Made by a program: the position numbers and the translations under genes. The notes beneath the pieces were generated by a model that was given only the letters and a program-made list of their open reading frames with translations, did no database searches and was not told the origin of the DNA. From contig JACAFH010000004.1 of assembly GCA_013538715.1 (NCBI GenBank), positions 1 to 64,000 of the forward strand: 64,000 nt of DNA, written 5' to 3'. This document shows positions 4,628 through 46,097 of the stretch, piece after piece. Position 1 is the stretch's first letter; every line of letters starts with the position of its first letter. This DNA is from Candidatus Nitrosothermus koennekei. Its GTDB lineage: Archaea > Thermoproteota > Nitrososphaeria > Nitrososphaerales > Nitrosocaldaceae.

Positions 4628-4714
4628 CGCCGCCGGTCGGACTCGAACCGACGACCGACTGGTTTCTACTAGATACTAACAGCCAGCCGCTCTACCACGC
4701 TGAGCTACGGCGGC
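4628..4714 (-). tRNA. tRNA-Asn (GUU) with a 13-nt anticodon-loop intron
   Basis: The acceptor GCCGCCG pairs with CGGCGGC, the D stem is GCTC/GAGC, the anticodon stem is GCTGG/CCAGT and the T arm is GTCGG/CCGAC with loop TTCGAGT. The anticodon is GTT and the discriminator base is G. Twenty bases separate the two halves of the anticodon stem: seven loop bases and a 13-base intron (4664-4676) at the canonical position 37/38. The cloverleaf closes fully once the intron is removed (74 nt including the discriminator). Confidence 0.93.
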
Positions 4715-16666: not shown

Positions 16667-16784
16667 TGCGGGGGGTGGGATTTGAACCCACGAACCCCTA
16701 AGGGACGGGATCACCCATGATTAGATCTTAAGTCCCGCGCTTCCAAATATTCTAGCCTCTTTGGCCAGGCTCGGCGACCCCCGC
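16667..16784 (-). tRNA. tRNA-Leu (UAA) with two introns
   Basis: Acceptor GCGGGGG/CCCCCGC with discriminator A, T arm GTGGG/CCCAC with loop TTCAAAT, long variable arm containing CCCTTAGGGG, anticodon stem CGGGA/TCCCG and anticodon TAA. A 15-base intron (16712-16726) sits at the canonical position 37/38. The D arm reads correctly only if 18 further bases (about 16741-16758) are removed, giving GAGCCTGGCCAAAGGCG. Without both segments the gene is 85 nt, right for a class II tRNA. The exact splice sites of the D-arm intron could slide by a base or two. Confidence 0.88.
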
Positions 16785-45965: not shown

Positions 45966-45980
45966 AGCCCGGAAGCCCGG
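45966..45980 (+). repeat. 8-bp direct repeat AAGCCCGG at the 5' edge of tRNA-Gln
   Basis: AAGCCCGG occurs twice in tandem, at 45965-45972 and 45973-45980. The second copy forms the 5' acceptor strand of tRNA-Gln; the first lies just outside it. It may be a slip duplication or a target-site-like scar. Confidence 0.7.
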
Positions 45981-46097
45981 TCGAGAGAGATCGCCGAATC
46001 TAGTGGTCAAGGAAGGGTTAGATAACCTATTGAATACCAGGCTCTGGATCTAATGAAAAGAAACCTGGTGACAGCAGTTCGAATCTGCTCCGGGCTA
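45974..46097 (+). tRNA. tRNA-Gln (CUG) with three candidate introns
   Basis: Acceptor AGCCCGG pairs with CCGGGCT plus discriminator A; the T arm is AGCAG/CTGCT with loop TTCGAAT; the anticodon stem is CCAGG/CCTGG and the anticodon CTG (46044-46046). The 124-base gene folds correctly only after removing 15 bases in the D arm (45984-45998), 21 bases between D and anticodon arms (46014-46034) and 15 bases at the canonical 37/38 site (46048-46062). This leaves exactly 73 nt with every stem paired. Intron 2 holds a perfect GGTTA/TAACC hairpin. Precise splice sites may slip by a base. Confidence 0.85.

Follow-up and report, generated by a model that had tools for sequence, protein, structure and literature searches.

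A leader strand that may stand in for the 5' acceptor strand during splicing of a three-intron archaeal tRNA-Gln(CUG)

How can a transfer RNA (tRNA) precursor be spliced when the splicing structure and the mature molecule need the same bases? The question is raised by the tRNA-Gln(CUG) gene at 45974-46097 (+) of a 64,000-nucleotide (nt) stretch of DNA from Candidatus Nitrosothermus koennekei (contig JACAFH010000004.1, positions 1 to 64,000), hereafter the window. We consider it very likely that this is a functional three-intron gene whose leader supplies a stand-in for the 5' acceptor strand, which would free the true strand for splicing and would then be displaced and removed by RNase P. The anatomy of the sequence, its conservation, its co-occurrence with an intron and its predicted folds give direct support to this reading.

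Removal of 15, 21 and 15 nt from the locus yields a 73-nt tRNA-Gln(CUG), AGCCCGGTCGTCTAGTGGTCAAGGATACCAGGCTCTGGACCTGGTGACAGCAGTTCGAATCTGCTCCGGGCTA, in which all four stems are paired: the acceptor stem at 7 of 7 positions, the D stem by G10-U25, U11-A24, C12-G23 and U13-G22, the anticodon stem as CCAGG/CCUGG and the T stem as AGCAG/CUGCU. In order along the forward strand, the segments are AGCCCGGTCG, AGAGAGATCGCCGAA, TCTAGTGGTCAAGGA, AGGGTTAGATAACCTATTGAA, TACCAGGCTCTGG, ATCTAATGAAAAGAA and ACCTGGTGACAGCAGTTCGAATCTGCTCCGGGCTA, the second, fourth and sixth being introns. Together with the leader, the features are as follows.

45966-45972 (+): leader stand-in strand AGCCCGG, complementary at 7 of 7 positions to the 3' acceptor strand 46090-46096, and at 8 of 8 with A45973-U46089
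45974-45980 (+): exon 1, true 5' acceptor strand (positions 1-7), 7 base pairs with CCGGGCU; bases 5-7 also lie in helix H with intron 1
45981-45983 (+): remainder of exon 1 (U8, C9, G10), placed by alignment to an intronless tRNA-Gln, AGCCCGGTCGTCTAG
45984-45998 (+): intron 1, 15 nt, position 10/11, relaxed bulge-helix-bulge (BHB), read from the sequence, with a layout that recurs in the UUG tRNA-Gln of this genome and in about 90 relatives
45999-46013 (+): exon 2, positions 11-24 (D arm), placed by D-stem pairing
46014-46034 (+): intron 2, 21 nt, position 24/25, read from the sequence; helix H is perfect in a homologue (genome G007)
46035-46047 (+): exon 3, positions 25-37, with the anticodon CUG at 46044-46046, placed by the anticodon stem CCAGG/CCUGG
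46048-46062 (+): intron 3, 15 nt, canonical position 37/38, read from the sequence and found in homologues
46063-46097 (+): exon 4, positions 38-73, with the T arm, the 3' acceptor strand (46090-46096) and the discriminator A, placed by T-arm pairing and a partial Rfam match

No second tRNA-Gln with the anticodon CUG was found in the genome; its other tRNA-Gln gene has UUG. Homologues from a different family within the order (genomes G007 and G023) are 84-87% identical to it over ~138 nt, leader included (BLAST), and have three introns at places identical to those of the window gene; because they share its three intron sites, the structure is not a matter of chance. All exons lie inside 124 nt in the normal order, so that the gene is neither split between separate loci nor permuted, with the 3' half upstream of the 5' half. 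ARAGORN did not call the gene, nor did the Rfam model RF00005, which scored 20.1 bits for the 3' part alone (46040-46097) against a threshold of 29.

A strict or relaxed BHB fits every junction (10/11, 24/25 and 37/38). The motifs were read by eye, with each cut placed after nucleotide 2 of the three-nucleotide bulge. In the first, helix H pairs exon CGGU (positions 5-8) with intron GCCG, the bulges are CG^A and AA^U, helix h is absent, and the intron forms the helix h' GA[GAGA]UC with a GAGA loop. The second has h GGU/ACC, h' GGGUU/AACCU and an H with a single mismatch, CAAG/AUUG; in the G007 homologue H is free of mismatches (CAAG/CUUG). An alternative register for this junction, H UCAA/UUGA, was rejected since it leaves the mature tRNA 1 nt short, whereas CAAG/AUUG gives the correct length and the usual cuts. 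In the third, the anticodon stem serves as the outer helix, with H CUCU/AAAG (one mismatch) and h' UC[UAAU]GA.

A preliminary description of this DNA, made from its letters, had proposed a tRNA-Gln(CUG) with three introns in a thaumarchaeal-looking host. The four-stem 73-nt product and the homologues bear out the gene, and the genome is indeed one of Nitrososphaeria. The proposed intron lengths are exactly those that put every cut after the second bulge nucleotide, and the absence of a BHB at any site, which would have spoken against the proposal, was not what we found. Two of the sites are non-canonical, as suggested, but intron 2 lies at 24/25, within the 3' strand of the D stem, and not between the D and anticodon arms. 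The hairpin noticed in intron 2 is present, but we redraw it as GGUU[AGAU]AACC because the proposed GGTTA/TAACC pairing leaves a 2-nt loop. The rarity of three introns in one gene, by contrast, was overstated: three-intron tRNAs have been reviewed for Thermoproteales (PMC4033280), tRNAscan-SE 2.0 counted 107 non-canonical introns in Thaumarchaeota (PMC8450103), and multi-intron forms of this gene are common in the order, where 25 of the 26 CUG tRNA-Gln genes that have the 10/11 intron contain more than 20 nt of additional intron sequence. Three introns per tRNA gene are already known (PMC4033280, PMC3218864, PMC8450103).

Of 400 genomes of the order, 107 have the 10/11 intron, and named relatives that match its pattern fall in Nitrososphaerales, Nitrososphaeraceae, Nitrosopumilaceae and Candidatus Bathyarchaeota. 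The genome's own tRNA-Gln(UUG) shares the 10/11 intron (A GA GUAA UC ACCG AA). The genome also has two putative splicing-endonuclease genes (PF01974), the number expected for the two-subunit type.

BHB 1 occupies acceptor bases 5-7 together with U8, and bases 5-7 are required by the mature acceptor stem; the splicing motif therefore competes with that stem. A second AGCCCGG starts 8 bases 5' of the exon, and complements 46090-46096. This 7-nt repeat (45966-45972) falls just outside the interval of the preliminary description, which does not mention it. The 5' region of the genome's tRNA-Gln(UUG) is organized in a similar way, as AGCCCGG-AGU-AGCCCGG.

The presence of such a strand is tied to the 10/11 intron well beyond this genome. 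BLAST matches, pattern matches and fetched leaders together gave 142 different tRNA-Gln genes from this order, in which we scored as a stand-in any leader strand within 30 nt that pairs with the 3' acceptor strand at a score of at least 5.5 of 7. A stand-in was present in 87 of the 90 genes with the intron versus 8 of the 52 without it, as compared with 11.5% of shuffled leaders (Fisher p ~1e-24, with shared ancestry ignored). In all four within-genus contrasts between UUG genes with and without the intron (g14, g18, g27 and g38), the stand-in tracks the intron. Moreover, when named genomes were scanned with a pattern that excluded the leader, all 67 confirmed intron-bearing tRNA-Gln genes, ten from Bathyarchaeota among them, had a stand-in (score at least 5, within 14 nt), and bacterial chance matches mostly had none. 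Conversely, a phylum-wide pattern that required the stand-in and left the intron optional retrieved 22 genes, 19 with the intron and three without, the latter all in family f45. These sets share some of their members and do not count as independent samples.

Might the leader strand have no function and simply be a scar, left when duplication or recombination inserted the intron? Exact copies near the gene in several lineages, and copies beside intron-free genes (L070, L051-L053), would be in keeping with such an origin. Against it, the spacer between stand-in and exon varies from 0 to about 14 nt, the association spans Nitrososphaeria to Bathyarchaeota, and stand-ins are altered yet complementary, through A3-U70, through GU pairs, or in the lineages with the acceptor strand AGCCCCG, where the stand-in is also AGCCCCG and helix H and the 3' strand have changed in step. 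We regard a scar as very improbable. Usually the stand-in is no stronger than the exon strand, as would befit a transient partner.

Further support comes from other tRNAs. About 30 ordinary tRNAs of the genome, including tRNAs with canonical and D-loop introns, have AT-rich leaders and no stand-in. The genome's tRNA-Ala has a 7/8 intron and the stand-in GGAUCGG, its tRNA-Ser(GCU) a 7/8 intron and the stand-in GCGCUGGGA, and its tRNA-Met a 9/10 intron and the stand-in GCCCGA; a second tRNA-Ser, with less certain intron boundaries, also has GCGCUGGGA. Homologues of the tRNA-Ala in G007, G023, five f1 genomes and three f14 genomes have GGAUCGG, GGACCGG or GGAUCGA, and intronless tRNA-Ala genes are generally without a stand-in. 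Among homologues of the tRNA-Met, that of G023 has both the intron and a bulged stand-in, and that of G007 has neither. In a tRNA-Ser of G019 (L360) the 5' acceptor strand is itself interrupted by an intron (5/6), and the leader has a full copy of that strand, GCCGGGG, as a stand-in.

The tRNA-Ala genes are especially informative. The pair G3-U70 is the identity pair of tRNA-Ala, and the exon keeps G3; in most stand-ins (GGAUCGG, GGACCGG) the partner of U70 is instead A3. What is maintained in the leader is thus complementarity to the 3' strand and not identity with the 5' strand, and we rejected a mere repeat of the exon, as the stand-in sequence drifts while its pairing persists. The same genes bear on the idea that the mature tRNA begins with the upstream copy and that a larger intron takes in the spacer, the second copy and the intron described here. 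Where the copies are exact, as in the window gene, this would give a nearly identical mature sequence. The BHB, however, requires the second copy as exon, the upstream strands are often mismatched (CGCCCGG, AGCUCGU) where the downstream copy is perfect, and the G3 of tRNA-Ala is in the downstream copy only; on the strength of the G3-U70 pair we rejected the idea, which we find barely credible.

Predicted folds are consistent with a leader that enables BHB 1. The models are two-dimensional, with tertiary contacts and proteins outside their scope. In 87 tRNA-Gln precursors folded with their natural leaders, helix H had a mean probability of 0.58, which dropped to 0.07 when the seven stand-in bases were randomized and to 0.04 when the leader was deleted; the natural sequence exceeded the randomized one in 85 of the 87, and results were similar at 55 C. 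For the genome's own Ala, Ser, Met and Gln(UUG) precursors the corresponding values were 0.95-0.99 with the leader versus 0.00-0.01 without it, and in the predicted folds of the Ala and Ser precursors the leader spacer doubles as the outer helix.

We infer the order of events, the exchange of strands and the inhibition of RNase P as follows. In the precursor, the stand-in would pair with the 3' acceptor strand, so that the body of the tRNA stays together. The true 5' strand, left free, could then pair with intron 1 to form the BHB at 10/11, at which the splicing endonuclease would cut, and the ends would be joined. The true 5' strand would subsequently displace the stand-in to give the mature acceptor stem, and RNase P, whose archaeal RNA is found in the genome at 226.6 bits, would remove the leader. 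While paired, the stand-in may also hold off RNase P until splicing is complete. It would be tempting to see this last effect as the chief one, with the pairing of the 3' strand preventing early 5' maturation and the freeing of the 5' strand being secondary: leader loss abolishes the predicted BHB, and early cleavage by RNase P would thus be harmful. Yet the genome's own Lys (L036), Asn and other canonical-intron tRNAs have no stand-in although they are also spliced, and the stand-in follows not introns at large but those with a BHB that draws on the acceptor strand. We consider a primary block of RNase P unlikely, and favor the freeing of the 5' strand for splicing. It is likely, moreover, that the window gene illustrates a general archaeal cis element, in which the leader evolves a surrogate strand wherever a BHB uses the 5' acceptor strand, and which acts as a two-state switch between a splicing form and the mature form.

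The proposed role presumes that the stand-in is transcribed. In ordinary tRNAs of the genome, AT content is highest 26-30 nt 5' of the exon, and for the Ala, Ser, Met and Gln(UUG) genes the best TATA-like match lies 21-30 nt 5' of the start of the stand-in. The stand-in is therefore probably transcribed in these four genes, judging by promoter position. In family f9, the AT profile did not clearly locate a shifted promoter. Scans for bacterial promoters and terminators were uninformative for an archaeal locus.

Several points weigh against a stand-in that acts in splicing. No good TATA match was found upstream of the window gene, for which the model gives helix H a probability of 0.16 when the leader is present, and of 0.01 when introns 2 and 3 leave first. 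The BHB is also unformed in the model, despite the leader, in the Ala precursors of G007 and G023, the Met precursor of G023 and the Ser precursor of G019, with probabilities near zero. For 48 fully spliced precursors the model gives a mean of 0.52 for the stand-in versus 0.25 for the exon strand; since it favors the stand-in after splicing in most cases, the strand would have to be released by tertiary folding or by proteins. Of the three intron-bearing tRNA-Gln genes under the threshold, one (L185) was misparsed and actually has an exact stand-in, but in the other two (L146 and L199) the stand-in is weak. In addition, a stand-in-like strand is present in eight intronless tRNA-Gln genes and in three genes of family f45.

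Some genes without the 10/11 intron were noted for their leaders. In L070 and in family f45 (G479, G499 and G583), an exact stand-in abuts a tRNA-Gln(CUG) in which the 10/11 intron is absent; these may be relics of intron loss, or older than the intron. In three tRNA-Gln(CUG) genes of family f3 (L051, L052 and L053), also without the 10/11 intron, an AGCCCGG stand-in lies 18-21 nt upstream, the spacer contains GGGCU, complementary to the exon strand and weaker in L051, and a relaxed BHB can also be drawn within the leader.

Two further tRNA genes of the window have introns. A tRNA-Leu at 16667-16784 (-) has apparent introns in the D arm and the anticodon loop, and scores 18.5 bits with the tRNA model. 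A tRNA-Asn at 4628-4714 (-) has a short canonical intron, and ARAGORN gives it an unassigned four-base anticodon.

If our reading is correct, it would explain how introns persist where the splicing structure and the mature tRNA need the same bases, the missing strand being provided by the leader. It would also give a defined role in folding to tRNA leaders, which are usually regarded as discarded, would predict which tRNA introns require a stand-in, and would make it possible to test whether splicing precedes 5' processing. The stand-in may, in addition, aid tRNA finders, which overlook or underscore such genes. We found no prior description of a leader stand-in strand in the open-access literature, to which the search was confined, subscription papers, including those on Thermoproteales introns, lying outside it.

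With regard to known systems, the window gene resembles the archaeal BHB-intron tRNAs of Thermoproteales and Thaumarchaeota in its short introns, its strict or relaxed BHBs, an intron number within the limit of three per gene, and its expected dependence on the splicing endonuclease (PMC4033280, PMC8450103, PMC3218864). It differs from them, as they are described in the searched text of those papers, in that a leader strand would substitute for the acceptor strand. As in the split tRNAs of Nanoarchaeum and others, sequence outside the tRNA pairs and thereby enables a BHB at an exon boundary (PMC4090602); here, however, the gene is undivided, and the partner of the leader is the 3' acceptor strand of the mature molecule, not a leader or trailer belonging to a separate half. 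Likewise, circularly permuted tRNAs combine unusual terminal pairing with a need for the splicing machinery (PMC3978253, PMC3218864), whereas in the present case the gene order is normal and only a strand of 7-9 nt is repeated upstream. A parallel on the processing side is the pairing between leader and 3' end that inhibits bacterial RNase P, in which a leader segment also pairs at the 3' end of the tRNA (PMC9433436). In the bacterial case the stem is lengthened by two leader bases opposite RCCA, whereas here the whole 5' acceptor strand would be replaced, in a manner linked to splicing.
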